A stretch of DNA of 64,000 bases from Pseudothauera lacus (GTDB lineage Bacteria; Pseudomonadota; Gammaproteobacteria; Burkholderiales; Rhodocyclaceae), in NCBI RefSeq assembly GCF_003034845.1, contig NZ_PZKC01000005.1, positions 186,001 to 250,000 of the forward strand, given 5' to 3'. Each line of letters starts with the position of its first letter. The first letter of the stretch is position 1. The translations under genes and the position numbers were made by a program. Shown here piece by piece: positions 2,871-37,568 of the stretch. A model generated the notes under the pieces. That model saw only the letters and a program-made list of their open reading frames with translations, did not search any database and was not told the origin of the DNA.

Positions 2871-3712
2871 GCACTGCCGCCGCCATCACCAACGCCCTTA
2901 CCATCGACGTCGAGGACTACTTCCAGGTCTCCGCGCTGGCCCCGCACTTTCCCCGCGAGCGCTGGGACAGCGTGCCCTGCAGGGTGGAAGCCAATGTCGA
3001 GCGCATTCTCGGCCTGCTCGCCGGGCGCGGCGTGAAGGCGACCTTCTTCACCCTCGGCTGGGTGGCCGAGCGCTACCCGCAACTGGTGCGCCGCATCGCT
3101 GCCGAAGGTCATGAAGTGGCCAGCCACGGCTACGGCCATGAACGGGCCAGCGCGTTGCCCCGCGAGGCTTTTCTGGCCGACATCCGGCTTGCCAAGGCAG
3201 TGCTCGAGGACATCACCGGCGAGGCCGTGAGCGGCTATCGCGCACCCAGCTTTTCCATCGGCCGCGCCAACCTGTGGGCCCACGATTGCCTGGCCGAGGC
3301 CGGCTACCGCTACAGCTCCAGCGTCTACCCGGTGCAGCACGATCACTACGGCATGCCGGAGGCGCCGCGTTTCCCGTGGCGGCTGGAGAACGGCCTGGTG
3401 GAGATCCCGGTCACCACCATGCGCTGGCTGGGGCGCAACTGGCCGGCCGGCGGCGGCGGCTATTTCCGCCTGCTGCCCTATGCGCTGTCGCGCTGGCAGA
3501 TCGCCCGCGTCAATCACAACGACCGGCGTCCGGCGATCTTCTACTTCCACCCCTGGGAGATCGACCCCGGGCAGCCGCGGGTGCGCGAGGCGGGGGCGAA
3601 GACGCGCTTCCGTCACTACGTCAATCTGCAGCACACCGAAGGCCGTCTGCGGCGCCTGTTGCAGGACTTCTCGTGGGGGCGGGCCGACACGGTGTTCCGC
3701 GACGCCGCCTGA
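2867..3712 (+). CDS. XrtA system polysaccharide deacetylase (NodB fold)
   Basis: A 281-residue NodB-type carbohydrate esterase. The catalytic Asp pair lies in TIDVEDYF near the N-terminus, the metal-binding histidines are in SHGYGHE, GYRAPSFS provides motif 3 and FYFHPWEID the C-terminal histidine motif. No signal peptide is seen, so it probably acts on lipid-linked sugars or precursors in the cytoplasm. It is the first of three deacetylases in the cluster (others at 16,912 and 33,365). Gene order places it in the DUF3473-containing XrtA-linked family (TIGR03006). ATGA overlap on both sides implies a translationally coupled operon. Confidence 0.92.
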   Translation: MSTAAAITNALTIDVEDYFQVSALAPHFPRERWDSVPCRVEANVERILGLLAGRGVKATFFTLGWVAERYPQLVRRIAAEGHEVASHGYGHERASALPREAFLADIRLAKAVLEDITGEAVSGYRAPSFSIGRANLWAHDCLAEAGYRYSSSVYPVQHDHYGMPEAPRFPWRLENGLVEIPVTTMRWLGRNWPAGGGGYFRLLPYALSRWQIARVNHNDRRPAIFYFHPWEIDPGQPRVREAGAKTRFRHYVNLQHTEGRLRRLLQDFSWGRADTVFRDAA

Positions 3713-14216: not shown

Positions 14217-14221
14217 TCGAC

Positions 14222-16911: not shown

Positions 16912-17877
16912 ATGCTTGCCAGGACAGCCTTCAGTCTGTTGTCGCCGGGCGGACGCGGTGCCCGTCTGTCGATCCTGATCTTCCATCGCGTGCTCGCGCA
17001 GCGTGATCCGCTTTTCCCCGCCGAGCCCGATGCACGCCGCTTCGATGAGCTCATGGGCTGGGTCGCCCGGTGGTTCAATGTCCTCCCCCTCGACGAGGCC
17101 GTGGCCAGGCTGCGCAGTGGGGAGCTGCCGCCGCGCGCGGCGGTGATCACCTTTGACGACGGTTATGCCGACAACTGCACCGTGGCCATGCCCATTCTTC
17201 AGCGCCATGGGCTGTCGGCGACCTTCTTCATCGCCGCCGGGTTTCTCGACGGGGGGCGGATGTGGAACGACACGCTCATCGAGGCCGTGCGCAATGCCCG
17301 GGTCGAGTGGCTGGAGACCGGGCTGCAGGGTATTGGCGGATTGCGGCTCTGCGGCATCGGCGAGCAGCGTGCAGCGATCGACAGGCTGATCAAGGCGGTC
17401 AAGCACCTCCCGCCTGCAGCCAGGTCGGACGCCGTGGCGCGCATCGCCGAGGCCAGTGCGGCCGATCTCCCCGACGACCTCATGCTCAGCACTTCACAGT
17501 TGCGGGCGCTCAGGGCAGGGGGCATGCTCATCGGCGGCCATACGCTGACCCACCCCATCCTCGCGGCCAGTACCGACACCGAGGCCGAACGCGAGATCGG
17601 CGACGGCAAGGCGCGCCTCGAGGCGCTGCTCGGCGAGCCGGTCAGACTCTTCGCTTACCCCAATGGGAAGCCCGGGGCGGACTATGAGCGCCGTCACGTA
17701 GACATGGTGCGGGCCCTTGGTTTCGACGCCGCGGTGTCAACCTGCTGGGGTGTCAATGATGGCGCTACCGACATCTTCCAGTTGCGCCGCTTCACTCCCT
17801 GGGACCGTCAGCGCTGGCGTTTTGCCTTGCGCCTGCTGGACAACCTGCGGCGCACGCCGGGAGCGCTGTGCAGATGA
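16912..17877 (+). CDS. Polysaccharide deacetylase family protein
   Basis: A 321-residue NodB-fold protein with the N-terminal LIFHRVLAQRDPLFP, the catalytic Asp pair in VITFDDGYADNC, GLSATFFIAAGFL, the metal-site IGGHTLTHPIL (His-x3-His) and LFAYPNGKPG. It is of the XrtA-cluster type that resembles PgaB/IcaB deacetylases; no clear signal peptide is seen. A GGAG ribosome-binding site lies 7 bases before the ATG. It probably N-deacetylates hexosamine in the polymer or its precursor, giving free amines that acyltransferases in the cluster could use. Confidence 0.9.
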   Translation: MLARTAFSLLSPGGRGARLSILIFHRVLAQRDPLFPAEPDARRFDELMGWVARWFNVLPLDEAVARLRSGELPPRAAVITFDDGYADNCTVAMPILQRHGLSATFFIAAGFLDGGRMWNDTLIEAVRNARVEWLETGLQGIGGLRLCGIGEQRAAIDRLIKAVKHLPPAARSDAVARIAEASAADLPDDLMLSTSQLRALRAGGMLIGGHTLTHPILAASTDTEAEREIGDGKARLEALLGEPVRLFAYPNGKPGADYERRHVDMVRALGFDAAVSTCWGVNDGATDIFQLRRFTPWDRQRWRFALRLLDNLRRTPGALCR

Positions 17878-18867: not shown

Positions 18868-20820
18868 ATGCCGGACACCTCCCCGCGTTACCGAGAGCCT
18901 TCAACCGCCATGTGGCGCGACCCCGCGACCTACCGCGAGGTGCTGCGGCGCGACTTCCTGGAGCCGCTCCGGCAACTCGCCCGCGAACACGGCGCGGTGC
19001 CCGCAGCGCAGCAGCATGACCTCCTCTGCCGCCTGCACTGGTACTTCACCGCCGACATGCGCGAACGCGCACCCACCGTAACCCTTACGGAAAGCGAGGC
19101 CGACGGTTTTCATGCACTGCTCGAGCAGATCATGGCTCATGTCGATGACGCTGCGCTGGCCTCCTTCGCTGCCGCCGGGGCCGCCGTCGAGGTCCGTCAT
19201 GCGCTGTACTCCTACCGCCGCCTGCGGGCCTGGTCGCCTGCCGTGGCCGATGCCTGTGACCACCGCCAACGGCTGTTGCGGCTGAGCTACTACGTCCATG
19301 GCGAACCCCCGGTGGAGCAGTGGCTGGTGGACGGGCGCCCCTGCCAGCCGGTGTTCGAGAAATACCGCGGCTGCCGGTTCTTTCATCGCCTGCGTTTCCG
19401 TCAGCGCATCGTCTGGCTGCCGCTCGACGCTGGCAGCAGGCTGGAGCTTCGCCTCGATGGCGTTCTCCAGGCGCTTTGCATTGACGACTGCGGGTTTGCC
19501 CTGGTGCGGCAAGACGGCCAGCCTCGCGCCCTCAATCTGGCCGAGGCGCAGGCTTGTTTCCTGCCCGGCAAGGGCGGCCGCCGGCGCGCCGCAGAGCGCG
19601 GACTGCGCAGCCTCAAGGCACGGGTGCTGCGCACTCTGGCGCGACTGCCGTGGATACGGCAGCGTTATCGCGATGCCTGGGTGTTCATCGACCGCAACGA
19701 GAATGCAGACGATAACGCCGAGCACCTCTACCGCTGGGTGCGTGCTCAGCGCCCGCAGGTCAACGCCTGGTTCCTCCTGAACCGCGACTCGGCCGACTGG
19801 CAGCGCCTGCAGCGCGACGGCTTTCGCCTCGTGCCGCCGGGTCTGACCCGCAAGCTGCTGCTCCTCAACAGCCGCCACATCGTCTCTTCGCACACCGATC
19901 TTGTCTTTGGCGGTTTCGACCGTGCGCTGTACGCGCCGTCGATGGACTGGCATTTCACCTTCCTGCAGCACGGGGTAACCAAGGACGACATGTCGCGCTG
20001 GCTGGGGCCGCGCCAGTTCGACGGAGTTGTCACCAGCGGCCCTGCCGAGCAGGAAGCCTTCGCCGGGGCCGACAGCGGCTACCCCTACACCGCGCGCGAG
20101 GTGTGGATGACCGGCATGCCGCGTTACGATCGCCTGCTCCGTCTGCAGCGCGACCGCACGGTCCCGGCGCGCACCCTGCTGGTGATGCCGACCTGGCGGG
20201 GCGGGGCGTTCGAGGAGCGTACGCGGGGTATGGACGAGGCCGAACGCAAGCGCATCTTCGCCACTACCGAGTACGCCCGGGCGTGGTCGGCGCTGCTGCG
20301 CAGCACGGTCCTGCATGAGGCTCTGGCGCAGCATGGCTGGCGTCTCGCCTTCATGCCGCACTTGAACTCGCTGCCCTACGCGGACGTCTTCGATGTGCCA
20401 CCCGGCGTTGAGGTGATCTCTGTCCTGCGTACCCGTATTCAGGATCAACTGGTCGCTGCCGGCGCCTTTCTCACCGATTACACCTCTGTCGCTTTCGACA
20501 TGGCCTTGCTGCGCAAGGCGGTGTTCTACTACCAGTTCGATCGCGAGTACTTCTTTCGCGGCGGGCACAACTGGCGGCCGGGTTATTTCGATTACGTGCG
20601 CGACGGCTTCGGGCCGGTGGCGGAGAGCGAGGACGAGTGTGTCAGCCAGGTCGCCGCCTTTCTCGCCAGCGGCGCACGGGTGGCGCCGGTCTACCGTCAG
20701 CGCATGGAGCGCGCCATGCCTCTGGATGACGAGAGGGCCTGCCAGCGAACCTATGAGGCCATCGCCGCGCTCGACCGCCCGCGCAGCAGGGCGGTGGACG
20801 CTACGCCCCCTGCATCCTGA
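18868..20820 (+). CDS. CDP-glycerol glycerophosphotransferase family protein (TagF/TagB-like)
   Basis: A 650-residue protein. Residues about 270-630 match the CDP-glycerol:polyglycerophosphate glycerophosphotransferase fold (PF04464). The signature pieces are FIDRNENADDNAEHLYRW, HIVSSHTDLVFGG, FLQHGVTKDD, MPTWRGG and LTDYTSVAFDMALLRK. The N-terminal 250 residues are of unknown function. In Gram-positives this family builds wall teichoic acid; here it probably adds phospho-glycerol or another phospho-polyol to the exopolysaccharide. Its last 70 bp overlap the end of the convergent pyruvyl transferase gene. An ATG at 18,910 is an alternative start. Confidence 0.85.
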   Translation: MPDTSPRYREPSTAMWRDPATYREVLRRDFLEPLRQLAREHGAVPAAQQHDLLCRLHWYFTADMRERAPTVTLTESEADGFHALLEQIMAHVDDAALASFAAAGAAVEVRHALYSYRRLRAWSPAVADACDHRQRLLRLSYYVHGEPPVEQWLVDGRPCQPVFEKYRGCRFFHRLRFRQRIVWLPLDAGSRLELRLDGVLQALCIDDCGFALVRQDGQPRALNLAEAQACFLPGKGGRRRAAERGLRSLKARVLRTLARLPWIRQRYRDAWVFIDRNENADDNAEHLYRWVRAQRPQVNAWFLLNRDSADWQRLQRDGFRLVPPGLTRKLLLLNSRHIVSSHTDLVFGGFDRALYAPSMDWHFTFLQHGVTKDDMSRWLGPRQFDGVVTSGPAEQEAFAGADSGYPYTAREVWMTGMPRYDRLLRLQRDRTVPARTLLVMPTWRGGAFEERTRGMDEAERKRIFATTEYARAWSALLRSTVLHEALAQHGWRLAFMPHLNSLPYADVFDVPPGVEVISVLRTRIQDQLVAAGAFLTDYTSVAFDMALLRKAVFYYQFDREYFFRGGHNWRPGYFDYVRDGFGPVAESEDECVSQVAAFLASGARVAPVYRQRMERAMPLDDERACQRTYEAIAALDRPRSRAVDATPPAS

Positions 20821-24672: not shown

Positions 24673-25920
24673 TCAGACCAGGATCTCGGTGACCGCCGGA
24701 TGACCAAGGAAGGCCTGCGGGCTGGCGCTGGCGCCGTAGGCGCCGGACTGGAAGACCACCACCAGATCGCCTGGCATGGCATCGGCGAGCGCCATGCGGT
24801 CGGCCAGCAGGTCGAGCGGAGTGCACAAGGGGCCGACCACCGAGCACGGCTCGCCGGGCTCCGCACCCATGCGGTTGCCTATCGCCGCGGGATAGTTCTT
24901 GCGGATCACCTGGCCGAAGTTGCCGCTGGCCGAGAGGTGGTGGTGCAGGCCGCCATCGGTGACCAGATAGGTATGTCCGCGTGAAACCTTGCGGTCAATG
25001 ACCCGCGCCACATAGACGCCCGCCTCGCCGACCAGATAGCGTCCCAGCTCGATGACCAGCTCGGCCGCGGGCAGGGCGTGGGCAGCGCGTGCCAGGATGT
25101 CGGCGAGGTTGTCGCCGATCGGGGCGAGGTCGAGGCGCTGCTCGCCGGGGAAGTAGGGGATGCCGAAGCCGCCGCCGAGGTTGAGGAAGCGCACCGCTGC
25201 GGGGGCGTGTTCGGCCAGTCGCAGGGCGAGCTGATAGCTTTTCTGTTGAGCCTCGACGATGGCCTCCGCCTTGAGGTTCTGCGAGCCGGCGAAGAGATGA
25301 AAGCCCTCGAAGCACAGGCCCGCCGCAGCGACTGCGCGCAGCAGCGCCGGAACCTCTTCGGCGTCTACGCCGAATTGCTTGGGGCCGCCGCCCATCTTCA
25401 TCCCCGAAGACTTCAGCTCGAAGTCGGGATTCACCCGCACGGCTACCCGCGCAGGCAGACCGAGCGCCTGCGAGGCCGCGGCCAGCGGGCCGATCTCGCG
25501 GGCCGACTCCAGATTCACCAGAATGCCGGCGGCGACCGCCTGCCACAACTCGCCGTCCTGCTTGCCGGGGCCGGCAAAGCTGATCTCCCTGGGGTCTGCG
25601 CCGACGTCGAGGGCGATCTTGAGTTCTCCTGCGGAGGCGACGTCGATGCCGTCGACCAGCTTGGTCATGTGACAGACCAGCGCCGGCATCGGGTTGGCCT
25701 TCATGGCGTAGTGCAGCTTCAGCGCGGGTGGCAGGGCGCGGCGCAGGGTGGCGGCGCGCTGCGTCAGCAGTTCGCGGTCGTAGGCGTAGAACGGCGTGCG
25801 TCCCACGCGCGTCGCCAGGCGCGTCAGCGGCAGCCCGCCGACCTGCAGTTCGCCATCGGTGACGGGGAACTGGTCCATGGGGGCGTGCGAGGGGGGCTGA
25901 GGGCGGTTGGGCTCGGTCAT
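24673..25920 (-). CDS. PLP-dependent decarboxylase, exosortase A system-associated
   Basis: A 415-residue fold-III PLP enzyme of the ornithine/diaminopimelate decarboxylase superfamily, in the XrtA-linked family TIGR03099. The PLP-binding lysine is Lys74 in LHYAMKANP. GFHLFAGSQ and NLGGGFGIPYF bind the phosphate, and the catalytic Cys is in GPLCTPLD near residue 365. The true substrate is unknown; lysA is normally elsewhere, so this copy probably makes a special amine for the polymer pathway. It starts 2 bp after the GNAT gene stop. In other genomes its partner genes are an AMP ligase, an ACP and two hydrolases, all found in this window. Confidence 0.92.
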   Translation of the reverse strand: MTEPNRPQPPSHAPMDQFPVTDGELQVGGLPLTRLATRVGRTPFYAYDRELLTQRAATLRRALPPALKLHYAMKANPMPALVCHMTKLVDGIDVASAGELKIALDVGADPREISFAGPGKQDGELWQAVAAGILVNLESAREIGPLAAASQALGLPARVAVRVNPDFELKSSGMKMGGGPKQFGVDAEEVPALLRAVAAAGLCFEGFHLFAGSQNLKAEAIVEAQQKSYQLALRLAEHAPAAVRFLNLGGGFGIPYFPGEQRLDLAPIGDNLADILARAAHALPAAELVIELGRYLVGEAGVYVARVIDRKVSRGHTYLVTDGGLHHHLSASGNFGQVIRKNYPAAIGNRMGAEPGEPCSVVGPLCTPLDLLADRMALADAMPGDLVVVFQSGAYGASASPQAFLGHPAVTEILV

Positions 25921-25922
25921 CT

Positions 25923-26669
25923 TCAGTGGGGATCCGTGCTGATGTCTTGTCGGGAGGCCGGATGCGAACCGGCCAGCGCTGGTGGTGCAGTGAGGCGCAG
26001 GCTTGGACAGGAGCGTTTGTCGGCGCTCAGGCTGACGTAAGGCCAGCGCCCCAGGAAGCTCAGTTGGTGCTGTCCGGCAAGGAGGAAGGTCGCGCTGCCC
26101 AGCCGCTGCATGCCAAGCCGGCGATGCGCCGCATGCGAAGCGGGGTTGAAGGCCGATATGCGCGATAGGGTCCAGTTAACCCCTTCGCTTGCGAGGTGTG
26201 CGTTGACGGCTTGCCAGAGGCGCGCAAAGGTACGCCCCAGCCTGAAGGAGGGTTCGATGTAGACGTCGAAATCCCAGACGCTCCGCTGAGGATCGGCAAG
26301 CTCGCAGCGCAGGCGGACTTCATCTTCATCATATGCTCCTCTGGCCAGCCACAGATAGCCGGCAAAAACGCCTTTCTGCTCGGCGACGAAACACTCGTGG
26401 CCCTTCGCAAAGCGTTCCCGAATCACGTCGGCGGGGCGAGGAAACGCTGCACACACCGGGTCGACTGCGCTGACCTGCCGTATGACACATTGCCCGGACG
26501 TGCGCAAGACTGGCAGGAGCGCTGCGTTGATGGCCTGGGCAACCAGGTGATAGCGTACGAGCTGCACGCGCCCACCGCTGAGGTGCGCAAGGCCCCTGGC
26601 GAGGGCGTAAAACACCGCATCCTTGAAGCCAAGATCACGAATGCTGCGCTGCAGGCGGATGAGGGGCAT
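25923..26669 (-). CDS. GNAT family N-acetyltransferase, exopolysaccharide-associated
   Basis: A 248-residue protein from the chosen start MPLIRLQRSI; the longer frame to 26,798 has no better start and would cover the divergent promoter region. Residues about 90-230 look like a GNAT fold, with acetyl-CoA-binding-like segments around EPSFRLGRTFARLW and the late SAFNPASHAAHRRLGM, a typical motif B. It heads the minus-strand operon and is followed after 2 bp by the decarboxylase, so acylation of the decarboxylase product or of a sugar is possible. Substrate unknown. Its GC is lower than that of its neighbours. Confidence 0.72.
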   Translation of the reverse strand: MPLIRLQRSIRDLGFKDAVFYALARGLAHLSGGRVQLVRYHLVAQAINAALLPVLRTSGQCVIRQVSAVDPVCAAFPRPADVIRERFAKGHECFVAEQKGVFAGYLWLARGAYDEDEVRLRCELADPQRSVWDFDVYIEPSFRLGRTFARLWQAVNAHLASEGVNWTLSRISAFNPASHAAHRRLGMQRLGSATFLLAGQHQLSFLGRWPYVSLSADKRSCPSLRLTAPPALAGSHPASRQDISTDPH

Positions 26670-26743
26670 CGAGCGGCGGGTTTGTTGGTGACTCGGTAAA
26701 TGAGCGTGGAGGAATGCCATGCAAGGACATTGTGCCTGGGGCA

Positions 26744-26749
26744 TATAAT
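26744..26749 (+). promoter_or_regulatory. Candidate -10 element of the acyl-carrier-protein operon
   Basis: A perfect TATAAT lies about 73 bases before the ACP start in the divergent gap. No convincing -35 hexamer occurs at 16-18 bases upstream, where GCAAGG/AGGACA are poor, so an activator may be needed or the match is fortuitous. The same A/T stretch read on the other strand could serve the divergent GNAT gene. Confidence 0.4.
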
Positions 26750-26770
26750 AGCCGCCTGCACCCGACTGCG

Positions 26771-26798
26771 TTGCAACCTGCATCACGTTTGGTTGCAA
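26771..26798. promoter_or_regulatory. Perfect inverted repeat in the leader of the ACP operon
   Basis: TTGCAACC and GGTTGCAA form an 8-bp perfect inverted repeat separated by 12 bases, with half-site centres 20 bp apart. It lies between the candidate -10 element and the ACP start. The 20-bp centre spacing (about two helical turns) fits a dimeric repressor site; as RNA it could form a hairpin before the ribosome-binding site. It is not followed by T residues and is therefore not an intrinsic terminator. Confidence 0.5.
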
Positions 26799-26821
26799 GT
26801 CCGTGGAAACAACAGGAGATC

Positions 26822-27073
26822 GTGTTGGACATCAAGAAGGAAGTGCTCGCCATCATCGACGAGGTTCTCAGCCTGAATGGGCGGGCGGCTGCTTTCGGCC
26901 TCGATACCCCCTTGCTTGGCGCCTTGCCGGAGCTCGATTCGATGGCGGTGGTCGGGCTCATCAACATGCTTGAGGAGCGTTTCGGCTTCATGGTCGAGGA
27001 CGATGAAATCGACGGGGCGACGTTTGCCGATGTCGGCACCCTGGTGAGCTTCGTGGAAGGCAAGCTGGCCTGA
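26822..27073 (+). CDS. Acyl carrier protein, exosortase A system-associated
   Basis: An 83-residue acyl/peptidyl carrier protein. The phosphopantetheine attachment serine is Ser40 in PELDSMAVVG, and the surrounding helix pattern is typical. The start is GTG at 26,822 or TTG at 26,825; AGGAG at 26,814-26,818 gives better spacing to the TTG. The longer frame to 26,714 would run through the inverted repeat and is rejected. It probably carries an acyl group loaded by the AMP-forming ligase at 37,569, as the two families co-occur with XrtA. It is followed after 1 base by hydrolase 2. Confidence 0.9.
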   Translation: MLDIKKEVLAIIDEVLSLNGRAAAFGLDTPLLGALPELDSMAVVGLINMLEERFGFMVEDDEIDGATFADVGTLVSFVEGKLA

Positions 27074-27074
27074 C

Positions 27075-27890
27075 ATGACGGGCGTGCGGCGTCGGGCGTT
27101 CTTCCTCGATGCACAGGGTGGCGGGCGTTTTTGCACGCTGCTGGAGCCCGCGACGGCGGCATGTGGCAATCTGCTGCTGGTGCCGCCGTTTGCCGAAGAA
27201 CTCAACAAGTCGCGACGCATGCTGGCGCTTGCCGCTGCGGCCTTTGCCCGCAGTGGCTGGCGGGTGCTGCACATCGACCTGTTGGGGACCGGCGACAGTG
27301 CCGGCGAATTCCGCGATGCAAGCTGGACCACGTGGCTCGACGACCTCTCCTGCGGGCGCGATTTCCTGCAGCACGGCGCTGACCTGCCGCTGGTGCTGTG
27401 GAGCCTGCGTGCCGGCAGCCTGCTGTGCGCGCAGTGGCAGGCGCGTGAGGGTACCGCGCTGCCCTGGCTGGCGTGGCAGGCAGTGGCACAAGGGCGTCAG
27501 CATGTGCAACAGTTCCTGCGCCTGAAAGGGGTCAGCGAAATGCTCAACGATGCCGATGCGAAGGCGGTGATGAGCAACTTGCGGGCGGAGATCGCCGCTG
27601 GCGCCGTGGTCGAGGTGGCTGGTTACGAACTGGCGCCGCAACTGCTCGGCGGGCTCGATTGCGCGGTGCTGGAGCAGCCACCTGCGGCCACCCTGCTGCT
27701 GGAGGTGGGCAGCGGCGATGGCGGGCTGTCTCCGGGTTTGCAGCGCCTGCTGGAACGCTGGCGCGACGGTGGTGCCGCAGTCGATGCCGGGAGCGTTCCC
27801 GGAAGCGCCTTCTGGCAGACGCAGGAGATCGAGACGGTTCCGGCACTGATCGATGCCAGCCTGCCCTGGCTCGCGGCGAGAGGAGCCTGA
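27075..27890 (+). CDS. Exosortase A system-associated hydrolase 2 (alpha/beta fold, nucleophile missing)
   Basis: A 271-residue alpha/beta-hydrolase-fold protein of the XrtA-linked family TIGR03101. The N-terminal LLLVPPFAEELNKSRR gives the oxyanion region and HIDLLGTGDS the strand-4 turn. At the nucleophile elbow, where GxSxG is expected, it reads LWSLRAGSLL, so the central position is Arg112 and the first Gly is Ser. A classical serine-hydrolase mechanism is therefore not possible here. The protein may be a pseudoenzyme or bind a carrier-linked substrate. It sits between the ACP and hydrolase 1 in one operon. Confidence 0.87.
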   Translation: MTGVRRRAFFLDAQGGGRFCTLLEPATAACGNLLLVPPFAEELNKSRRMLALAAAAFARSGWRVLHIDLLGTGDSAGEFRDASWTTWLDDLSCGRDFLQHGADLPLVLWSLRAGSLLCAQWQAREGTALPWLAWQAVAQGRQHVQQFLRLKGVSEMLNDADAKAVMSNLRAEIAAGAVVEVAGYELAPQLLGGLDCAVLEQPPAATLLLEVGSGDGGLSPGLQRLLERWRDGGAAVDAGSVPGSAFWQTQEIETVPALIDASLPWLAARGA

Positions 27891-27893
27891 GTA

Positions 27894-28748
27894 ATGGAAG
27901 AGGCGCTGGTGTTCGCATGCGAGGGCGAGGAGTTGGTCGGCGTGCTGGCGCGCCCGGCGGGCGAGGCCGGCGAGATCGGGGTGGTGATCGTTGTCGGTGG
28001 CCCCCAGTACCGGATTGGCAGCCACCGACAGTTTGTCCTTCTCGCCCGTCATCTCGCCGCCCACGGCTACCCCTGCCTGCGCTTCGACTACCGCGGCATG
28101 GGTGATGCCAGCGGGAGCACCCGCAGTTTCGAGGAAGTCGGCGACGATATCCGCGCGGCGGTCGATGCCCTGTGTGTGGCGTTGCCGCAACTGCGCACGG
28201 TGGTGCTCTGGGGGCTCTGTGACGGCGCCAGCGCCGCTGCCCTCTACGCTCCGCAGGATGAGCGTGTCGGCGGACTGGTGCTGGCCAATCCGTGGGTGCG
28301 CACGGCAACCGGTGAGGCCCGTACCTATCTGCGCCACTACTACCTTCAGCGCCTGCTGTCGCGGGACTTCTGGCGCAAGCTGCTGGGGGGCGGGCTGGCC
28401 GTGGGGCGTTCGCTGCGCGGCTTTGGCGGTGCCTTGCGGCAGGCGCGTGCGGGTGCGCCTGCCGAGGATGCCGGTGCGGCCCTGCCGGCACGCATGGCCG
28501 CCGCGCTGGGGCGTGCCGGACGGCCGTTCCTGGTCGTGCTCAGCGGCCGCGACTACGTTGCCCGCGAGTTCGAGCAGGCGGCCGCGGCGAGTGAATGGAT
28601 GGCGCTGCAGACGCTGGGACACAGGGTTGCGGCGGCAGAAGCGGACCACACCTTTTCCTCCCGCAGGGACGTTGATACGGTGAATCGGCTCACCGAGGAG
28701 TGGTTGAACGGATTGCCCCGCGTGCGGGGCCTGGGGGAGATGCCATGA
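27894..28748 (+). CDS. Exosortase A system-associated hydrolase 1 (alpha/beta fold, Cys nucleophile)
   Basis: A 284-residue alpha/beta hydrolase of the XrtA-linked family TIGR03100. Landmarks are VVGGPQYRIGSHRQF, RFDYRGMGDASG and the nucleophile elbow LWGLCDGASAA, with Cys109 in the position of the usual serine. The late histidine lies in AEADHTFSSR. A Cys nucleophile suits thioester or acyl-transfer chemistry, for example release of an acyl group from the neighbouring ACP, which is an inference. It starts 3 bp after hydrolase 2 and overlaps the TPR gene as ATGA. Confidence 0.9.
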   Translation: MEEALVFACEGEELVGVLARPAGEAGEIGVVIVVGGPQYRIGSHRQFVLLARHLAAHGYPCLRFDYRGMGDASGSTRSFEEVGDDIRAAVDALCVALPQLRTVVLWGLCDGASAAALYAPQDERVGGLVLANPWVRTATGEARTYLRHYYLQRLLSRDFWRKLLGGGLAVGRSLRGFGGALRQARAGAPAEDAGAALPARMAAALGRAGRPFLVVLSGRDYVAREFEQAAAASEWMALQTLGHRVAAAEADHTFSSRRDVDTVNRLTEEWLNGLPRVRGLGEMP

Positions 28749-29413
28749 GGCTGAAGAAACTGCTGCTGGCCGTGTTGCTGCTGTGGTCGGGCACGCAGGT
28801 GGTGCATGCTCAGGGTGTGGTGCTGGGGGAGGCGGTGTGCGGCAGTTTGACGAATCACTTTGGTCCTTACGACTACCGCACGGTCTCACCGCAGAACTTG
28901 AATATGGTTGAGCGCGCTCACTTCACTCCGCCGGTTGAGCGCCTGGAGCGCGGCAACACTACCATGGGGCCGGGTGGTGACCTCAGCTATACCCTCAACG
29001 TCTTTCCCAACCACCACCGCGCCCTGATGTCGATGATGCGTTTTGCACTCAGGGAAGGGCGTGCGATGCCCAAGGGGTCGTCGCGCACCATCGAGTGCTG
29101 GTTCGACCGCGCGCAGCGCTATGCCCCCAACGACCCGATGCCCAAGGTGATCGAGGGCCTGTATCTGGCGGCCCGCGGACAGAACGCCCAGGCTGAGGCG
29201 AAGCTCGACGAGGCGCTTGCGCTGGAGCCCGCGGATCCCAACGTGCATTACAACCTTGGCCTCGCCTGGATGGATCTGCGGCGCTACGACCGCGCTCTGG
29301 AAAGTGCCCACAAGGCCTATGCTGCGGGGCATCCGCTGCCCGGCCTGCGCCTGCGTCTGGAGCGCGCCGGGCACTGGCGCGAACTGCCCGCGGCGGGCGC
29401 GCCGGTGCAGTGA
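28745..29413 (+). CDS. Periplasmic TPR-containing protein of the XrtA cluster
   Basis: A 222-residue protein with a signal peptide of about 22 residues (LLLAVLLLW core, cleavage near VHA-QG). The middle part contains FPNHHRALMSMMRF and two conserved-looking cysteines, followed by one to two TPR-like repeats at about 140-205 (ARGQNAQAEAKLDEALAL and VHYNLGLAWMDLRRYDRAL). It probably acts as a periplasmic scaffold for polymer assembly or export. No enzyme motif is seen. ATGA overlap at the start and one-base TGATG overlap at the end show it is in the ACP operon. Confidence 0.8.
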   Translation: MRLKKLLLAVLLLWSGTQVVHAQGVVLGEAVCGSLTNHFGPYDYRTVSPQNLNMVERAHFTPPVERLERGNTTMGPGGDLSYTLNVFPNHHRALMSMMRFALREGRAMPKGSSRTIECWFDRAQRYAPNDPMPKVIEGLYLAARGQNAQAEAKLDEALALEPADPNVHYNLGLAWMDLRRYDRALESAHKAYAAGHPLPGLRLRLERAGHWRELPAAGAPVQ

Positions 29414-30009
29414 TGGGCCGGCTTGCCGGCATTGCCGCGCGCATCCTGCGGATGCGCAGCCACCTGCTCTACGAGTGTGCCTGTGCCGGTGCCGCGATGC
29501 CGGCGCTACAGGAAGGCGAGCATTTCCACGTGCTCAGCGCCGGGAGTCTGCCCGGGCAGGAGGCGCTGGCCAAGATGCTGCTTGCCGCCGCTGCCGACAA
29601 TGCGGCCTACCTTGAGGATGTCAGGCGTGGGCGGGTGATTGCCTTGCTGATCAGCCGCGATGGCGAACTGGCGCATTACAGCTATCTCTTCCTGCGCAAC
29701 AAGACGGCATGCCTGCTTGGCCTCGGGAGTGGGACGGCGCTGGTCGGCAATGCGTGGACCGCACCGCGTTTCCGTGGCCAGGGCCTGCAGGCGCGCGCGG
29801 TGCAGGCCCGCGCCGCGCTGGCCGGTGAGCACGGATTCGAGCGCATTGCCGCGGAAACGTCGCCGGACAATCTGGCTTCGCAGCGTGGCATGAGCAAGGG
29901 TGGGATGCGTCTGCTCGGGCGCATGGACCTGATCGTCGTGCTCAGTGTGCTGGTGTTACGTTTGAGAAAACCTGCGGGATTCAGGCTGGTAGCATTCTGT
30001 TTGAGATAG
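29413..30009 (+). CDS. GNAT family N-acetyltransferase
   Basis: A 198-residue GNAT-like protein, last gene of the ACP operon. The acetyl-CoA pyrophosphate-binding loop is RFRGQGLQARAV (about residues 119-130), preceded by a beta strand NAWTAP and followed by TSPDNLASQRG, the usual motif B. The C-terminal 40 residues are hydrophobic and basic and could attach it to the membrane. Its substrate is unknown; by context it may use the ACP-bound acyl group or acetylate an amino sugar. Confidence 0.78.
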   Translation: MGRLAGIAARILRMRSHLLYECACAGAAMPALQEGEHFHVLSAGSLPGQEALAKMLLAAAADNAAYLEDVRRGRVIALLISRDGELAHYSYLFLRNKTACLLGLGSGTALVGNAWTAPRFRGQGLQARAVQARAALAGEHGFERIAAETSPDNLASQRGMSKGGMRLLGRMDLIVVLSVLVLRLRKPAGFRLVAFCLR

Positions 30010-30122: not shown

Positions 30123-31292
30123 ATGGATTCGAGAATTCCGAAGCGGCCGGTGCTTGACTGGGGTGGGCGTGTCAAACGTGGGAGGGCGCATCTTCCTTCC
30201 GTCGCGACCCTCCCTAACAGAGTCAATACGACAAGCGGCCGTGCTGCCATATATCATGCGCTCAGAATGGCCGGGCTGAGCGCTGGCGATGAAGTTCTGG
30301 TGCCGACATACCACTGCCCGACAATGGTAGCGCCGTTGGTCATGCTGGGTTTGCAGCCATTGTTCTATGCGGTTGGCGAACATGGTCTACCCGAACTTGG
30401 AGGCCTTGAATGTGATCGCGTCCGAGCAGCTAGGTGCATGATCGTGCCCCATTACTTTGGCCTGCCGAGATCCTTGGCGGATGTCCGGGAGTGGTGTAGT
30501 GAACATGGCGTAGTGCTTATAGAAGATTGTGCTCATGCGTTTTACGGGATGGCCGGTGATCGTCAGGTGGGGGCATGGGGGGACTACGCAATTGCGAGCA
30601 TGACGAAGTTCTTTCCTGTGACTGAAGGAGGTTTGCTGGCCTCAATCACCCGACCGCTGGAGATTTCCCCCTTGCCGAATCAGGGTATCAGGGCCGAGCT
30701 GAAAGGGGTGTTTGACATGCTCCACATGGCAACTCGTTGCGGCCGCATGCGGGGAATGGGCGTCGTGCTCGAGGGGCTGCGGGGAGGCTGGTGGCGGAGG
30801 GAGGCGGGTGCTGTTCAGCGTGAGCCCAAGTTCTCCGCCCCTGAACCTCAGGGTGTGGCGATTTCATGCGATATGGGGAGGGTTGAATCTGCTCCATTGC
30901 TCTCGACAAGAGTGCTCTTCAATCTTTCTTCGGGTGATGATGCGTGCAATACAAGGCGCCAGCACTTTGAGAGATACCTGAATGAGCTGTCGAACCTGGA
31001 AGGTGGAAGATTTCTTTACCCCTCTCCAATTTCAGGGGGGGCGCCTTACGCTTTCCCGCTCTGGGTTGATGATGTGGAAAGGGTGTACCGGCGCTTGAGG
31101 ATGCGTGGGGTACCGGTCAATCGCTGGGACAGGCTGTGGCCGGATACTCCAGTGCTGGAAGGCGACGTTGGACTGCGGTGGAGCAGGCACGTTCTGCAGG
31201 TTCTTTGTCATCAGAGTCTGCGTGATTCGGAGGTTTCTTTTGTGATCAAAGAGATACGTGAAGCCATTGCATGTCAATGCGAAGAAGGTTGA
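30123..31292 (+). CDS. DegT/DnrJ/EryC1/StrS family aminotransferase
   Basis: A 389-residue PLP-dependent sugar aminotransferase-like protein. TTSGRAAIYHAL gives the phosphate-binding start, LVPTYHCPTMV the conserved loop, LIEDCAHAFYG the PLP-stacking Asp135, and ASMTKFFPVTEGG the Schiff-base Lys162. In this family the product is usually an amino sugar nucleotide, made from a keto sugar. No matching 4,6-dehydratase is visible, so the keto substrate must come from elsewhere, or the protein acts on something else. GC is clearly lower than in the surrounding genes, suggesting transfer. It has no strong Shine-Dalgarno. Confidence 0.87.
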   Translation: MDSRIPKRPVLDWGGRVKRGRAHLPSVATLPNRVNTTSGRAAIYHALRMAGLSAGDEVLVPTYHCPTMVAPLVMLGLQPLFYAVGEHGLPELGGLECDRVRAARCMIVPHYFGLPRSLADVREWCSEHGVVLIEDCAHAFYGMAGDRQVGAWGDYAIASMTKFFPVTEGGLLASITRPLEISPLPNQGIRAELKGVFDMLHMATRCGRMRGMGVVLEGLRGGWWRREAGAVQREPKFSAPEPQGVAISCDMGRVESAPLLSTRVLFNLSSGDDACNTRRQHFERYLNELSNLEGGRFLYPSPISGGAPYAFPLWVDDVERVYRRLRMRGVPVNRWDRLWPDTPVLEGDVGLRWSRHVLQVLCHQSLRDSEVSFVIKEIREAIACQCEEG

Positions 31293-31296
31293 CGGT

Positions 31297-32334
31297 GTGA
31301 GTTCAACGGCGATGCGATGGGAGATGCATCCCGCCAGTGCTCTGGTGGAGGACCGGGGGGCCATGGCGAGTTGGGATCGGTTGAACGGTCAAGCAACTCG
31401 GCAGGTCTTCATGGATACCAATGCAATTTCTCTTGCCCTGAAGCATTTTGGCTGCGGGCGTGAGCGTCTGCTGATCGGCAAGTGTCATGAAGAGATCTTC
31501 TGCATGGCGGTACTGGTCAAATCCGGGCTGATGCGCTGGGCGACCTTTCAACCGTCCCAGTTGCCCCTTGGGGCCTTCCTCCTGTGCCCGGAGTCCTCGT
31601 TCGAGCATGTCATCGCCTCTTTGATGCGGTATCTGTCTCCAGGTGTCATTACTCTTTCGTTCACGCAGATCGATCCGTTTTTTGTTGCTCGCCCACCCGA
31701 TCGAGAAACGGTGAGGGTGAGTGACCATGTGGAGACGGGTTGGATCGAGATCCCCGACGATTTTGAGGATTATTGGCGTTCGCGGAGCAAGAATCTGAAG
31801 AAGAGTTTGCGAAGTCAGGAGAACAAGCTGGCTGCTGCCAATGTGGTGTCAAGAATGTGCAGTGTCCAGGCCCCGGAGGATATGCCATCTGCCGTGGCGC
31901 GCTTCGGAGACCTGGAGAGTGCTGGCTGGAAGGGAAAGGCGGGTACGGCAGTTCATGCTGGCAACGCTCAAGGACGGTTTTATACGGACCTCATGGTTGC
32001 CGAGGCGCTGAACGGCAATGCGGTTGTGCATGAGTACTGGTTTGATGACCGTTTGGCGGCTTCGAATATTTGCCTCGTTCGGGATAAGTCTCTGGTTGTA
32101 TTGAAGACTGCTTACAACGAGAGTCTTGATCATTTTTCTCCTGCATTCCTGCTCAGGCGCGATCAGATCAGGCTTGCCTGTGATTCCGGTGAATTTAATC
32201 GCATTGAGTTCTATGGCCGCAAGCGAGATTGGCATACGCGGTGGACCGAGAAATTCCGCACTCTGTACCACGTTACGGCATATAGAAATGCCGCTCTTCG
32301 TCGAGCTGCCGGGTTGGTCAGAATGCTCGGCTGA
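31297..32334 (+). CDS. FemAB-like / GNAT-fold acyltransferase of the polysaccharide cluster
   Basis: A 345-residue protein of the Acetyltransf_6 class. The basic segment YWRSRSKNLKKSLRSQENKL (about residues 155-175) is the hallmark, and the second GNAT half carries FYTDLMVAEAL, HEYWFDDRLAASN, LKTAYNESLDHFSP and RIEFYGRKRDWHTRWT. The start is GTG 31,297 with GAAGAAGG 8 bases upstream; ATG 31,312 is an alternative. It forms a low-GC two-gene unit with the aminotransferase, so it may acylate the amino sugar which that enzyme makes. Paralogues lie at 3,712 and 32,433. Confidence 0.8.
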   Translation: MSSTAMRWEMHPASALVEDRGAMASWDRLNGQATRQVFMDTNAISLALKHFGCGRERLLIGKCHEEIFCMAVLVKSGLMRWATFQPSQLPLGAFLLCPESSFEHVIASLMRYLSPGVITLSFTQIDPFFVARPPDRETVRVSDHVETGWIEIPDDFEDYWRSRSKNLKKSLRSQENKLAAANVVSRMCSVQAPEDMPSAVARFGDLESAGWKGKAGTAVHAGNAQGRFYTDLMVAEALNGNAVVHEYWFDDRLAASNICLVRDKSLVVLKTAYNESLDHFSPAFLLRRDQIRLACDSGEFNRIEFYGRKRDWHTRWTEKFRTLYHVTAYRNAALRRAAGLVRMLG

Positions 32335-32432: not shown

Positions 32433-33368
32433 TCAGGCGCTGCGGCGCAACCAGCGCTTGATGCGCTGCTTGAGGCCGAGACGGTCGAGCGTGGCCACCA
32501 CGCGGCGAGACAACTTCTCCAGGCTGCCGTGGGTGGCGAGCAGCAGGCGGTTGTGCAGGGTCGGGCGCAGCAGCAGCAACTGCAGGCAGGGGATCTGGTG
32601 GGTGCCGAACAGGCGCTTGTGCTCGGAGTCGCCCTCGGTGAAATCGAAGGCGCTGAAGCGCTGTTCGGCGAACAGGCGCTCCATGGCCAGCCATTGCAGC
32701 ACCGTGCCTGGCGACAGGTGGGCGTGATCGGGAGCGTAGCCGAGGTAGGCGTACTCCAGGGTGCCGGCCGCCACCGGGCAGTAGAGATAGGACACCGGCC
32801 GTGCGCCGGCGAACAGCAGGAAGGCGCGCACCTCGCCGCGTGCCGCGGCGGCCAGTGCGCGGGCGGTGAAGCCGTCATCGCCGGGCAGACCGCAGTCGAG
32901 CAGGCGGGCCTGGTAGGTGGCGGCGGAGAGCGGGCGGGCGAGGTCGAGGAAGGTCGCGATCTCCTCTGCGCTGGCGTAGCCGCGCAGGTCGATGCCGTCG
33001 CTGGCTTCGGCAAACTTGCGGATCTTGCGCTGGATGCCCGAGCGGGTCTTGCTGGAGAACTTGCCCTTGTAGGCCTCGAAATCCATGCCCATGTCGATGT
33101 AGCTGCGCTGGTAGGACTTCAGGCAGTAATGCAGCCAGTGCCCGGTGCCGTCCAGGGTGCCGGCGCTGGCTGCGGGGATGTTGGCGAGCAGGTAACCGTC
33201 GGCTCCGGCGTCGAGTGCGGGCAGTACCGGTGCGGCGGCACTGGCACGGATTTCGTCGAGGTTGTAGACCCGTCGCAGCAGCGGCAGGGCGACGCTGCCC
33301 AGGGCATGTTCACCGAGGCGCATGACGAGGCGGAAGGAGAAGCGGTGCCAGGGGCTGGGAGCGGTCAT
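32433..33368 (-). CDS. FemAB-like / GNAT-fold acyltransferase (Acetyltransf_6 class)
   Basis: A 311-residue protein, the third FemAB-like member of the cluster. The segment SYIDMGMDFEAYKGKFSSKT followed by RSGIQRKIRKFAEAS (about residues 88-122) marks the family. The second half has RAFLLFAGARPVSYLY, YAYLGYAPDHAHLSPGTVLQ and the final FDFTEGDSEHKRLFG, typical of CelD/BcsL-like acetyltransferases. Its ATG overlaps the end of the deacetylase gene, so a deacetylation-acylation pair on the same amino sugar is attractive, as an inference. It is the last gene of the long minus-strand operon. Confidence 0.82.
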   Translation of the reverse strand: MTAPSPWHRFSFRLVMRLGEHALGSVALPLLRRVYNLDEIRASAAAPVLPALDAGADGYLLANIPAASAGTLDGTGHWLHYCLKSYQRSYIDMGMDFEAYKGKFSSKTRSGIQRKIRKFAEASDGIDLRGYASAEEIATFLDLARPLSAATYQARLLDCGLPGDDGFTARALAAAARGEVRAFLLFAGARPVSYLYCPVAAGTLEYAYLGYAPDHAHLSPGTVLQWLAMERLFAEQRFSAFDFTEGDSEHKRLFGTHQIPCLQLLLLRPTLHNRLLLATHGSLEKLSRRVVATLDRLGLKQRIKRWLRRSA

Positions 33369-34327
33369 GGGAGATGGCGTAGGGCCTGTTCGAAGAGGCG
33401 GGTGGTGGTGGCGTGCATGGAGACCGCAGGCAGCGGCCGGGGGCGCGCGGCAAGCTGCAGTGTGTTGTCGGCGAAATGGCCGGTGGGCAGGATGCTGCGC
33501 TGGTGGGCGAGGTGTGCGCAGAGCTGCTCGAAGCGGCGCACCACGGTGGTGTCGGGAGCGCTGCTGGCGGGTTTCATGAGCTCGAAGCTGTGTGACAGCA
33601 GGACGAAGCAGGGCCAGCCGTGGAGCGCGGTCTGGTCGAGGGCCTGGACCAGTTCGGCGGTGCTGCAGGCGCCGATCTGTGCGTGACGGGGGCGGCCAAA
33701 GCCGTCGCGGAAGCTGCTCAGCGGAATGCAGCCGAGGCCGTCGGCTGCGAAGGGGCCGCAGTAGCCTGCGGCGGCGGGGACGAAATCACCTGGGGTGGAC
33801 TCGGGCATCGCCGGGTTGATGCTGCAGTCGTAACGCAGGCCGTTTGCGCGCACGGCGGCGAAGGTGTCGGGATTGCAGGCAAAACTGCCGGCGCGGAAGG
33901 CCATCGGGGGTTTGCAGCCCGCTTCGCGGAGCAGGCGCAGGCCGTGGGCGATGAGGGTCTGCTGTTCGGCGAGGGAGTAGGCTGTCAGGTGCTGGCGCTT
34001 GCCGGCCATGCCTGGCAGCAGGGGCGGACGGGCTTCGTCGGCCCATTCGGGATGCAGATGCAGCTGGACTTCCTGCCCGGCGTCCTCGATGAAGCGCACG
34101 ATGGTGGCCAGATATTCGACCCCGAAGCGTGCGGCAAACAGCGGCTCGACGAAGAAGATGCCCTTCAGCCCGTGCCTGGCGAGGGTGTCGAGGGTGCGGG
34201 GCAGGGCGTAGCCGTCGCGGCGCGAGTGGCCGAAGACATAGCGTTCGAAGCTGTCGGGGAAGTCCGTCTCGATGCTCTCCCAGCCGTTGCACCACACTTC
34301 AACATCGAAGGTGAGCAGTACCTCCAT
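33365..34327 (-). CDS. Polysaccharide deacetylase family protein
   Basis: A 320-residue NodB-like protein. [14 protein letters not shown] holds the catalytic Asp, [15 protein letters not shown] follows, QLHLHPEW holds the metal-site histidines, [12 protein letters not shown] is motif 3 and LLSHSFELM is the late histidine motif. No signal peptide is seen. It is the third deacetylase of the cluster, and its start lies inside the long C-terminal tail of ugd (29-bp overlap), so its translation depends on that of ugd. It overlaps the following FemAB-like gene by 4 bp. Confidence 0.88.
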
Positions 34328-35748: not shown

Positions 35749-37557
35749 TCAGCATGCCACGACGGTGTTACCGGATTGATGCTCGCGCAGCCAGAACTCC
35801 AGCATCGTCAGGATCCATACCATCTCGCCGTAGTAGCCGGGGTGGGCGGGGAGGTGGATGGCAAGGAGGTCGTCGATGAAGGCCGGGCGGACGATGCCGC
35901 GTCCGCGCAGGCTGCCCAGGGCATCGGCGGCAAGCTTGCCGAGGCCGTCGTGCTGGCAGGCCCAGACGCCGAACGGCAGACCGAAGCCGTGCTTCTTCTT
36001 GGTGATGATGGCGTCGGGCAGGAAGCCGCGCAGGGCCTCCTTGAAGAACCAGCGCAGGGTCAGACCCTTCAGCTTCCACTGCGGCGGCAGGCTGGTCGAG
36101 AAGTCCACCAGTTCGTCGGAGAGGAGCGGGAAACCGACGTCGATCCCGGCGAGCTGGGTGCTGCCGATGACCTTCGGCAGGTCGTTGTCGGCGAGGGTGT
36201 ATTTCCAGTCGTAGGCCAGCATGCGGTTGATCAGGGTTTCGGCCTCGGCCGCCTGCCACACTGCGCGCTGGTCGCGCAGCGGGGCGTCGCGATCGACGGT
36301 GGCGAGGAAAGCGGCCTCGAAGACGGTGTCCATGCCCAGGCGCAGCAGCATGTTGTACATCTGCAGGCGGTCGGGCATCGGCACGCGGGCCTGTTCAATG
36401 TAGCTGGCGCCCTTCTTCAGCAGCGGGGCGCGGCCGACCCCCGGCAGGGCGAAGAGGGGTTCCAGCACGCCGCGGCGCAGTGCCGCGGGGATGCCGTCAT
36501 AGACCCCGAAGACGCGCTGCTTGGCATAGCGTGTGTTGCCGCCGAAGAGTTCGTCGCCGCCATCGCCGGCGAGCAGCTTGTCGATGCCGTCTTCGCGCGC
36601 ACGGCTGGCACAGATCCATGCCGGCACCGCGGAGGAGTTGCCGAAGGGCTGGTCGTAATGAGTGGCGACGCGCGGGATGCCGTCGAGCAGATCGTCCGGG
36701 GTGACGTAGTACTCGCGGTGATCGACACCGAAATGGCGCGCGGCAATGCGGGCGTATTCCATCTCGTCATAGCCGCTGGCGTCGAAGCCGATGGAGTGGC
36801 AGCGCGCCGGTGCGTCGAGCGCCCGGCCGAGCATGCCGGCAACGGTCGAACTGTCGGTGCCGCCGGAGAGGAAGGCACCAACCTGATGGCCGTCGGCTTC
36901 ACGCCGCACGCCGTCGTCGATGATCTGCAGGAAGCGCTCGCGCGCAGTGGCGAAGTCCGCCGCGCCGGGTTCCGCGAAGCGCGGCGTCCACCACGGCCGG
37001 CAACTGGCCTGGCCGTCCTGCCAGTGCAGCAGGTGGCCGCCGGGGAGGCGGGCGATGCCGTCGAAGATGGTCAGCGGGGCGGGGATGGCGTGGAAGAAGA
37101 GGTACTCGAAGATCGCCTGCGTGCTGATCGTGCGCTGTGTGGCGGGCACGCGGTCGGCGCGGTCGGCGAAGGCCAGGCCGTGGGCGTCGGCGCGGTAGCA
37201 CACCGGCCAGGTGGCGAAGCGGTCGCTGGCGAGCAGCGCACGGCTGCCGTCGGTGGCCACCATGACGACACAGAAGCGCCCGTGCATGCCGTTCAGCGCG
37301 GCTTCGCCGTGGCTCGCCCAGGCCTGCGCCCAGGCCGCTGCGGCGCCTTCGCGGATGGCGGTGTCGTGCACCGCGGGGTCGTCGAAACGGGGAGTGCCGG
37401 CGACCAGGCTGAGCAGGCCGTCGCGTTCATAGACGGTATGGGCACTGCGGTGGGCGAGCATGCCGCGGGCGAAGGCGAGGCGGGCGAGCTCCGCTGCCGG
37501 CGCAGGGAGGGCAGCGGTGGTGCCGCTGTGGATGTAGCCACTGAATTGTTCGAGCAC
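35749..37557 (-). CDS. Asparagine synthase-related protein lacking the glutaminase cysteine
   Basis: A 602-residue protein whose C-terminal synthetase domain is intact, with the P-loop [26 protein letters not shown] and [14 protein letters not shown]. The N-terminal glutaminase-like domain begins [11 protein letters not shown], so the usual Cys2 is replaced and glutamine hydrolysis is not expected. The start is GTG 37,557 with GGAG 6 bases upstream, 11 bp after the AMP-ligase stop; the frame is open to 37,710 but no start there restores a cysteine. It may use ammonia or an amine as nucleophile, as beta-lactam synthetase relatives do. Substrate unknown. Confidence 0.85.
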
Positions 37558-37568
37558 GGGGGTCTCCG

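Follow-up and report, generated by a model that had tools for sequence, protein, structure and literature searches.

A ligase, carrier protein and decarboxylase module resembling VinN and BtrK in an exopolysaccharide locus of Pseudothauera lacus

What might a stand-alone acyl carrier protein (ACP) carry in an exopolysaccharide locus, when a decarboxylase is encoded next to it and the ligase expected to load it lies several kilobases away? The question is raised by a stretch of 64,000 nucleotides of the Pseudothauera lacus contig NZ_PZKC01000005.1, referred to here as the window; all coordinates are positions in it. Four of its proteins exceed the curated cut-offs of NCBIfam families named for their association with the exosortase A system: an adenosine monophosphate (AMP)-forming ligase (TIGR03098; 37569-39173, minus strand; 795.3 bits, cut-off 592.35), a pyridoxal phosphate (PLP) decarboxylase (TIGR03099; 24673-25920, minus strand; 641.8 bits, cut-off 478.45), hydrolase 1 (TIGR03100; 27894-28748, plus strand; 325.1 bits, cut-off 168.45) and hydrolase 2 (TIGR03101; 27075-27890, plus strand; 234.1 bits, cut-off 202.75). 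NCBIfam types these families as hypoth_equivalog, under names that specify no substrate. On balance we favour the reading that ligase, ACP and decarboxylase form a load-and-decarboxylate module of the VinN/BtrK kind, which would make an aminoacyl-ACP donor for exopolysaccharide.

Co-occurrence and gene order

All open reading frames (ORFs) of a preliminary description of the locus were found in place. Its layout, with the decarboxylase and the adjoining GNAT1 gene (25923-26669, minus strand) divergent from an ACP operon and the ligase in a separate minus-strand run, was confirmed by ORFs and families. The distance given for the ligase, 8-10 kb, had to be corrected: 7.6 kb separate the gene from the end of the module as named, and 11.6 kb from the ORF of the decarboxylase. 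The ACP (26822-27073, plus strand) has 83 residues and a GTG start at 26822 preceded by AGGAGA. Its DSM phosphopantetheine site has the serine in 60/60 aligned rows, and a family search, run on the longer ORF 26714-27073, gave a PP-binding match of 25.7 bits (gathering 20.8).

Among 229 genomes sampled from the class, matches over the cut-offs were found for the ligase in 31, for the decarboxylase in 27 and for both in 26 (Fisher p 3.5e-28, which is only a guide since the genomes are related). Counting one further genome (G094), in which the decarboxylase is cut by a contig end, there are 27 pair genomes. In 24 of them the ligase immediately precedes the decarboxylase, both being on one strand and no more than 160 bp apart. 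The other three, with distances measured between profile matches, are P. lacus (11.7 kb), G228 (4.9 kb) and G111 (1.2 kb). A second set of named loci comprised the best 80 of 576 candidates and is biased to close relatives. Here the ligase was within 10 kb of the decarboxylase in 77/80, and 67 of these 77 had the two genes at most 200 bp apart on the same strand; in the other 10/77 the distance exceeded 200 bp or the strands differed, as in L102, where 5.6 kb separate the genes. The ACP was found in 59/80 named loci; in 54 of these it lies upstream of the ligase and is transcribed divergently. Adjacency and co-occurrence thus support ligase, ACP and decarboxylase as one functional unit, in line with the single carrier-protein module proposed earlier. 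The wider survey of families suggested at that time bore out the ligase/decarboxylase pair (26/229), with a FemAB-type gene seen in 18/80 loci.

The separation of ligase and ACP is probably a local rearrangement, because the related loci L101, L104 and L113 keep GNAT1, ligase and decarboxylase together. In the Thauera and Azoarcus loci L101 and L104 the order is TPR protein, hydrolase 1, hydrolase 2 and ACP on the minus strand, followed by GNAT1, ligase and decarboxylase on the plus strand; the window resembles L101 with the ligase moved out.

The ligase pocket

By whole-sequence score, gramicidin synthetase and the peptide synthetase 8xjz were the top matches of the ligase, both multi-domain chains for which several stretches are summed; the best single-domain chain among the matches listed was VinN (187.5 bits). 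When only the 110-residue pocket stretch was searched, VinN scored 57.9 bits and the next adenylating enzyme, IdnL1, 26.2 bits, with two Hax3 repeat proteins, matched by many short weak stretches, lying between them. According to the part of the source available, VinN activates 3-methylaspartate as a beta-amino acid; its D230 binds the amine, the loop carrying K330 and R331 has one residue fewer than its counterpart in alpha-amino acid enzymes, with F231 and S299 on the opposite side (PMC11253843). The P. lacus ligase aligns gap-free with VinN through this loop. D219 (corresponding to D230, a position set by the FD motif against the published VinN numbering), F318 (K330) and R319 (R331) are invariant in 105/105 ligases. 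Of the K330/R331 pair in the short beta13-beta14 loop of VinN, the arginine is kept and the lysine replaced by phenylalanine in all 105. IdnL1 acts on 3-aminobutyrate, which lacks a second carboxylate, and has Val-Ala where the ligase has Phe-Arg, with Ala at the position of R331. Because R319 is invariant and IdnL1 lacks this arginine, we infer that R319 holds the free alpha-carboxylate of the substrate, and that it is the side-chain carboxylate which is activated.

Positions 220 (F231 of VinN) and 287 (S299) are Ala and Thr in 68/105 ligases and Tyr and Ser in 37/105, and are never mixed. P. lacus belongs to the Ala220/Thr287 class, which among 29 class-wide ligases accounts for 4, with 25 in the Tyr/Ser class. 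As the ligase tree requires two or more changes between the states of this pair, their coupling in the 105 sequences rests on few events. The Ala/Thr pocket may, as a guess, take a substrate larger than aspartate. Since the bulky VinN-type residues at the F231/S299 positions are absent from the P. lacus protein and the K330/R331 pair is only half kept, we would describe the ligase as working like VinN without classing it as a VinN. Judged from its sequence, the ligase belongs with the amino acid type of adenylating enzymes; the amino acid adenylation model TIGR01733 matches it at 258.8 bits, below its cut-off of 317.4. Homology also supports the earlier proposal that the ligase loads an acid on the ACP. 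The idea that its separation from the ACP leaves room for strain-specific chemistry fared less well: the relatives named above keep the genes together, and the Ala220/Thr287 pocket is present in 68/105 ligases, whereas ligase and decarboxylase were split in only 10/77 loci.

The decarboxylase

The best solved relative of the decarboxylase is BtrK, matched over nearly the full length at 267 bits, as against 160 bits for the best diaminopimelate-type enzyme, LysA. BtrK is an L-glutamyl-[BtrI acyl-carrier protein] decarboxylase, which, in the portion of the source at hand, converts carrier-bound glutamate to 4-aminobutyryl-BtrI (PMC7857480). All 28 aligned decarboxylases have the motif CTPLD, where BtrK has CTPED and Aquifex LysA CETGD. 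A second stretch, KMGGGPxxFG with some variation among the 28, is close to KMGGVPRQFG of BtrK and is not shared with the LysA of that comparison. In the tree, the decarboxylases and BtrK were split from 13 LysA sequences with 100/100 support, a split found in each of 200 bootstrap trees. The LysA set consisted of Aquifex LysA and 12 proteins from the same genomes, whose ORFs were picked by the LysA motif, so that the motif is presupposed; all 12 regions held such an ORF. Assignment of the decarboxylase to LysA itself was rejected, as it scored 241.8 bits against a cut-off of 297.9 and has CTPLD instead of CE[ST][GA]D. A LysA-like gene of the P. lacus genome lies on another contig.

Being closer to BtrK than to LysA and carrying a CTPxD motif, the decarboxylase is predicted to act on the aminoacyl group while this is attached to the ACP. 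Only four mild positions (157, 209, 211 and 248) separate the decarboxylases that go with the two ligase pocket classes (68 versus 32 sequences, with thresholds set by us), which gives little sign that the amino-acid head group changed between them. With the decarboxylase nearest to BtrK and the ligase pocket nearest to VinN, we consider decarboxylation on the carrier likely. The same order of events, loading and then decarboxylation, is described for stand-alone ACPs of 3-amino-2-methylpropionate macrolactam pathways in the accessible part of the literature (PMC10662134). These relatives speak against the separate reaction proposed earlier, in which the decarboxylase makes an amine.

Relation to exosortase A

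Exosortase A (XrtA) is encoded in the window at about 6032-6808 on the plus strand (348.3 bits). The same genome holds a second exosortase-family protein (G000 contig C1:353503-354219, L002; 143.3 bits). Across the survey, XrtA was over its cut-off in 45/229 genomes and in 18/27 pair genomes. Among the nine pair genomes without XrtA, the broad exosortase family was over its cut-off in three (G008, G044, G068) and weak in G199 (47.8 bits), and no exosortase-family match at E<=0.001 was obtained in G052, G104, G146, G185 and G197, of which G104 is 85% complete. The module was thus not confined to exosortase genomes, 5/27 pair genomes having given no such match. Hydrolase 2 was present at E<=1e-25 in 18/18 pair genomes with XrtA and in 3/9 without (Fisher 0.0003), and at the curated cut-off in 14/18 and 1/9, respectively (Fisher 0.003). 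The ligase-decarboxylase pair is therefore separable from the exosortase, and hydrolase 2 follows XrtA more closely.

Among plasmid records the ligase was found in 38, 27 of them from Sinorhizobium. For the S. meliloti carrier SMb20651, considered as a possible earlier description of this ACP, no identity with it could be shown from the citing literature. Loci of Sinorhizobium, Aureimonas and Shinella encode ligase, decarboxylase, ACP and glycosyltransferases; the ACP adjoins the ligase-decarboxylase pair in Sinorhizobium and Shinella and in Aureimonas 1.9 kb separate it from the ligase. The earlier description would have the group passed to amino sugars freed by deacetylases; in Sinorhizobium and Aureimonas the annotation does have a polysaccharide deacetylase within 10 kb. 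No exosortase is annotated in the stretches examined from the three genera, for which the PLSDB gene table is incomplete. In an unannotated Burkholderia cenocepacia locus, only ligase and decarboxylase were matched among 24 window proteins. A published account of an exopolysaccharide cluster of B. cenocepacia lists one of its hypothetical proteins under TIGR03100 (PMC3584217).

The close tracking of XrtA by hydrolase 2 among pair genomes allows a speculative extension, in which the module equips the exopolysaccharide, or its lipid-linked precursor, with a primary aliphatic amine (beta-alanyl or 4-aminobutyryl). This amine would serve as the exosortase A nucleophile to which PEP-CTERM proteins are joined, and hydrolase 2, perhaps with hydrolase 1, would link both systems. 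We regard this as very improbable; 27/45 XrtA genomes lack the pair, and the five pair genomes without an exosortase match argue in the same direction.

The two hydrolases

Both proteins had been described as hydrolases, but hydrolase 2 lacks a nucleophile. Hydrolase 1 keeps a Cys109-Asp220-His252 triad, conserved in 45, 44 and 43 of 46 aligned rows, respectively. Its cysteine is aligned to the serine of GLSMGG in the MHETase chain 9pjb_A, and a DHTFS stretch is common to both. A cysteine nucleophile at this place fits acyl transfer from a thioester, making hydrolase 1 a candidate acyl transferase or thioesterase. Hydrolase 2 has the alpha/beta-hydrolase fold with Arg112 at the nucleophile elbow. 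At this position 46/46 letters are arginine (one row is gapped), and no serine, cysteine or aspartate occurs among them. In the structural model (predicted local distance difference test, pLDDT, 94), strand 106-111 is followed by the arginine elbow and then by helix 114-125, and comparison with PET46 (Z 25.2, root-mean-square deviation (rmsd) 2.7, 244 aligned) indicated that the fold is kept. Hydrolase 2 is thus probably not a hydrolase; alignment and model suggest a conserved pseudo-hydrolase that may partner hydrolase 1 or the ACP. The two were found in 46/80 (hydrolase 2) and 45/80 (hydrolase 1) named loci, some of which lie on short contigs. Two loci (L126 and L143) have two ACP genes each, which flank hydrolases 1 and 2.

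Candidate transferases

GNAT1 is a candidate acyl or aminoacyl transferase. Its Pfam Acetyltransf_1 match (17.4 bits) is below the gathering score of 20.7, and its AlphaFold model (mean pLDDT 81.8, from an alignment of 5 sequences) has a GNAT fold, with a best match in the PDB at Z 13.4, rmsd 3.8 and 162 aligned residues. An assignment as aminoacyl transferase by fold was tried and not used, because A-PGS, MprF and Sba18 do match, but within about 2 Z of acetyltransferases. GNAT1 was found in 5/80 named loci, and stands upstream of the ligase, in the order GNAT1-ligase-decarboxylase, in L101, L104 and L113. Proteins of 281-295 residues that look GNAT-like are encoded immediately before the ligase (Sinorhizobium, Aureimonas) or before ACP and ligase (Shinella), a place that corresponds to that of GNAT1 in P. 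lacus; they gave no Pfam match at E<=0.05, and their GNAT nature is a reading of the sequence. The transferase that goes with the core thus seems to differ among several lineages.

The ACP operon continues with a TPR protein (28745-29413, plus strand; Pfam TPR), whose N-terminus reads like a signal peptide, and with GNAT2 (29410-30009, plus strand; Pfam Acetyltransf_1, 28.5 bits), a candidate acyltransferase. Beyond these lie a DegT-type PLP aminotransferase-like protein (30123-31292, plus strand; Pfam 70.7 bits) and a FemAB/GNAT-type protein (Acetyltransf_6; 31258-32334, plus strand; Pfam 65.5 bits), a candidate aminoacyl transferase. Near the module in the named loci, TPR proteins were seen in 18/80 and DegT-type proteins in 19/80, beside the FemAB-type proteins counted above.

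Proposed pathway and alternatives

The pathway that we propose is read from families, gene order, conserved residues and co-occurrence. Its core would consist of ligase, ACP and decarboxylase. The ligase would adenylate the side-chain carboxylate of a dicarboxylic amino acid, most likely L-aspartate, with L-glutamate or a substituted aspartate possible in the Ala220/Thr287 class, and the AMP ester would then be passed to the ACP thiol, so that the amino acid is loaded on the ACP. Removal of the alpha-carboxylate on the carrier would leave an omega-aminoacyl thioester, beta-alanyl- or 4-aminobutyryl-S-ACP, and not a free amine. GNAT/FemAB-type proteins would move the aminoacyl group to a sugar in the exopolysaccharide precursor; the Cys-type hydrolase 1 and the nucleophile-less hydrolase 2 may also help in the transfer in many exosortase loci. 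For this last stage, delivery to polysaccharide, we see about even chances.

Several observations weigh against this pathway. VinN K330 is Phe318 in all 105 ligases and F231/S299 are Ala220/Thr287 in P. lacus, so that the substrate may differ from that of VinN, and the multi-domain chains outrank VinN by whole-sequence score. The substrate of BtrK is loaded by a different ligase type, the ATP-grasp enzyme BtrJ. In the decarboxylase tree BtrK, a single row with a long branch, stands for the carrier-dependent enzymes on its own, with LysA as the sole alternative group. Four genomes (G077, G120, G204, G212) hold the ligase without an over-cut-off decarboxylase; they offer a natural test of the ligase acting alone. 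On the side of transfer, the structure matches of GNAT1 do not separate acetyl from aminoacyl transferases, and the stretches from Sinorhizobium, Aureimonas and Shinella showed neither hydrolase, which makes these two unlikely as a general transferase.

Instead of decorating a polymer, the omega-aminoacyl-ACP could also feed an amide that the locus makes for secretion, as a metabolite or signal. The characterised relatives serve antibiotics, namely butirosin and macrolactams, in the parts of the sources available (PMC7857480, PMC10662134). A major facilitator superfamily (MFS) transporter and amino-acid transport genes stand beside the Shinella locus, additional AMP-ligase-like matches lie near the module in L133, L144 and L163, and many recurring neighbour families carry no label. 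Those that do carry one are polysaccharide genes (Wzx, UGD and glycosyltransferase, by reading of the sequences), however, and in Sinorhizobium and Aureimonas a deacetylase and several glycosyltransferases are annotated around the module; we consider a small-molecule product rather unlikely.

Two further alternatives concern what the ligase loads. The preliminary description had it load a fatty or hydroxy acid for N-acylation, while the decarboxylase separately makes a free amine. The NCBIfam name of the ligase, acyl-CoA ligase, and the GNAT/FemAB genes nearby would agree with this, but Asp219 and Arg319 are invariant in the pocket, for which VinN is the best match, the decarboxylase groups with BtrK and not with LysA, and ligase and decarboxylase are tightly paired; this version is unlikely. 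It is still less probable that the ligase loads an alpha-carboxylate, like the adenylation domains of nonribosomal peptide synthetases (NRPSs), with the decarboxylase acting on some other, free substrate. Gramicidin synthetase as top whole-sequence match and the TIGR01733 score, though under its cut-off, would favour such plain aminoacyl loading. Against it, the pocket stretch favours VinN by more than 30 bits with a gap-free loop, and the decarboxylase next to it would have nothing to do on a residue loaded through its alpha-carboxylate.

Other genes of the window

The ligase gene directly precedes, in its minus-strand run, the gene of an asparagine-synthase-like protein (35749-37557, minus strand; Pfam Asn_synthase 234.3 bits, run on 35749-37710). 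This protein begins MLEQ and lacks the N-terminal glutaminase cysteine. In its alignment, one of 25 rows begins MC (the starts are automated), and four rows seem to belong to the other amidotransferase type, with wrongly set starts. The protein may, from its sequence, use an amine other than glutamine-derived ammonia. Of three deacetylases proposed for the window, Pfam recognises two (2867-3712 and 16912-17877), and the third (33365-34327, minus strand) gave no Pfam match at E<=0.001 and no NCBIfam match at 0.01. A second AMP-binding protein (14138-15580, plus strand; Pfam 32.2 bits, gathering 29.9) is a possible alternative activating enzyme. The exopolysaccharide locus also includes a CDP-glycerol:poly(glycerophosphate) glycerophosphotransferase-like protein (18868-20820, plus strand; Pfam 89.3 bits). 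The labels UGD, Wzx, GTb and WecB on window genes come from reading of the sequences, not from family searches.

Comparison with known systems

To our knowledge, amino-acid decarboxylation on a carrier protein is known only from antibiotic pathways. In the open-licence literature searched, as far as its text was available, we found no function for the TIGR03098-TIGR03101 families and no report of carrier-bound decarboxylation beside exopolysaccharide genes. With the pathway proposed here, families named only by their co-occurrence with exosortase A would gain a concrete, testable function. If it is true, carrier-protein amino-acid decarboxylation also serves bacterial exopolysaccharides, positive charge is added to the matrix polymers of floc-forming and root-nodule bacteria, and hydrolase 2 is a conserved pseudoenzyme.

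The NCBIfam description of TIGR03098-TIGR03101 as exosortase A system-associated contrasts with the occurrence of the ligase-decarboxylase pair where no exosortase was found. In the Dlt system of teichoic acid D-alanylation, an adenylating enzyme and a carrier protein supply a surface polymer with an amino acid; the P. lacus module differs from it by an added decarboxylation step, and its ACP reaches only 19.3 bits with the DltC model, far below the cut-off of 68. Butirosin biosynthesis (BtrJ, BtrI, BtrK) is alike in the decarboxylase, which is closest to BtrK, an enzyme acting on glutamyl-ACP, and unlike in the ligase, which in P. lacus is an AMP-forming adenylating enzyme and not an ATP-grasp enzyme. 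The vicenistatin type of loading, with a beta-amino acid starter (VinN, VinL, VinO), shares, in the parts of the sources at hand, the set of a stand-alone adenylating enzyme, a stand-alone ACP and a decarboxylase (PMC11253843, PMC10662134), with VinO likened by role and not by sequence. The P. lacus ligase has the amine-binding aspartate, the pocket arginine and the gap-free loop alignment in common with VinN, but differs in phenylalanine for K330 and Ala/Thr for F231/S299, and its module sits in a proteobacterial exopolysaccharide locus.

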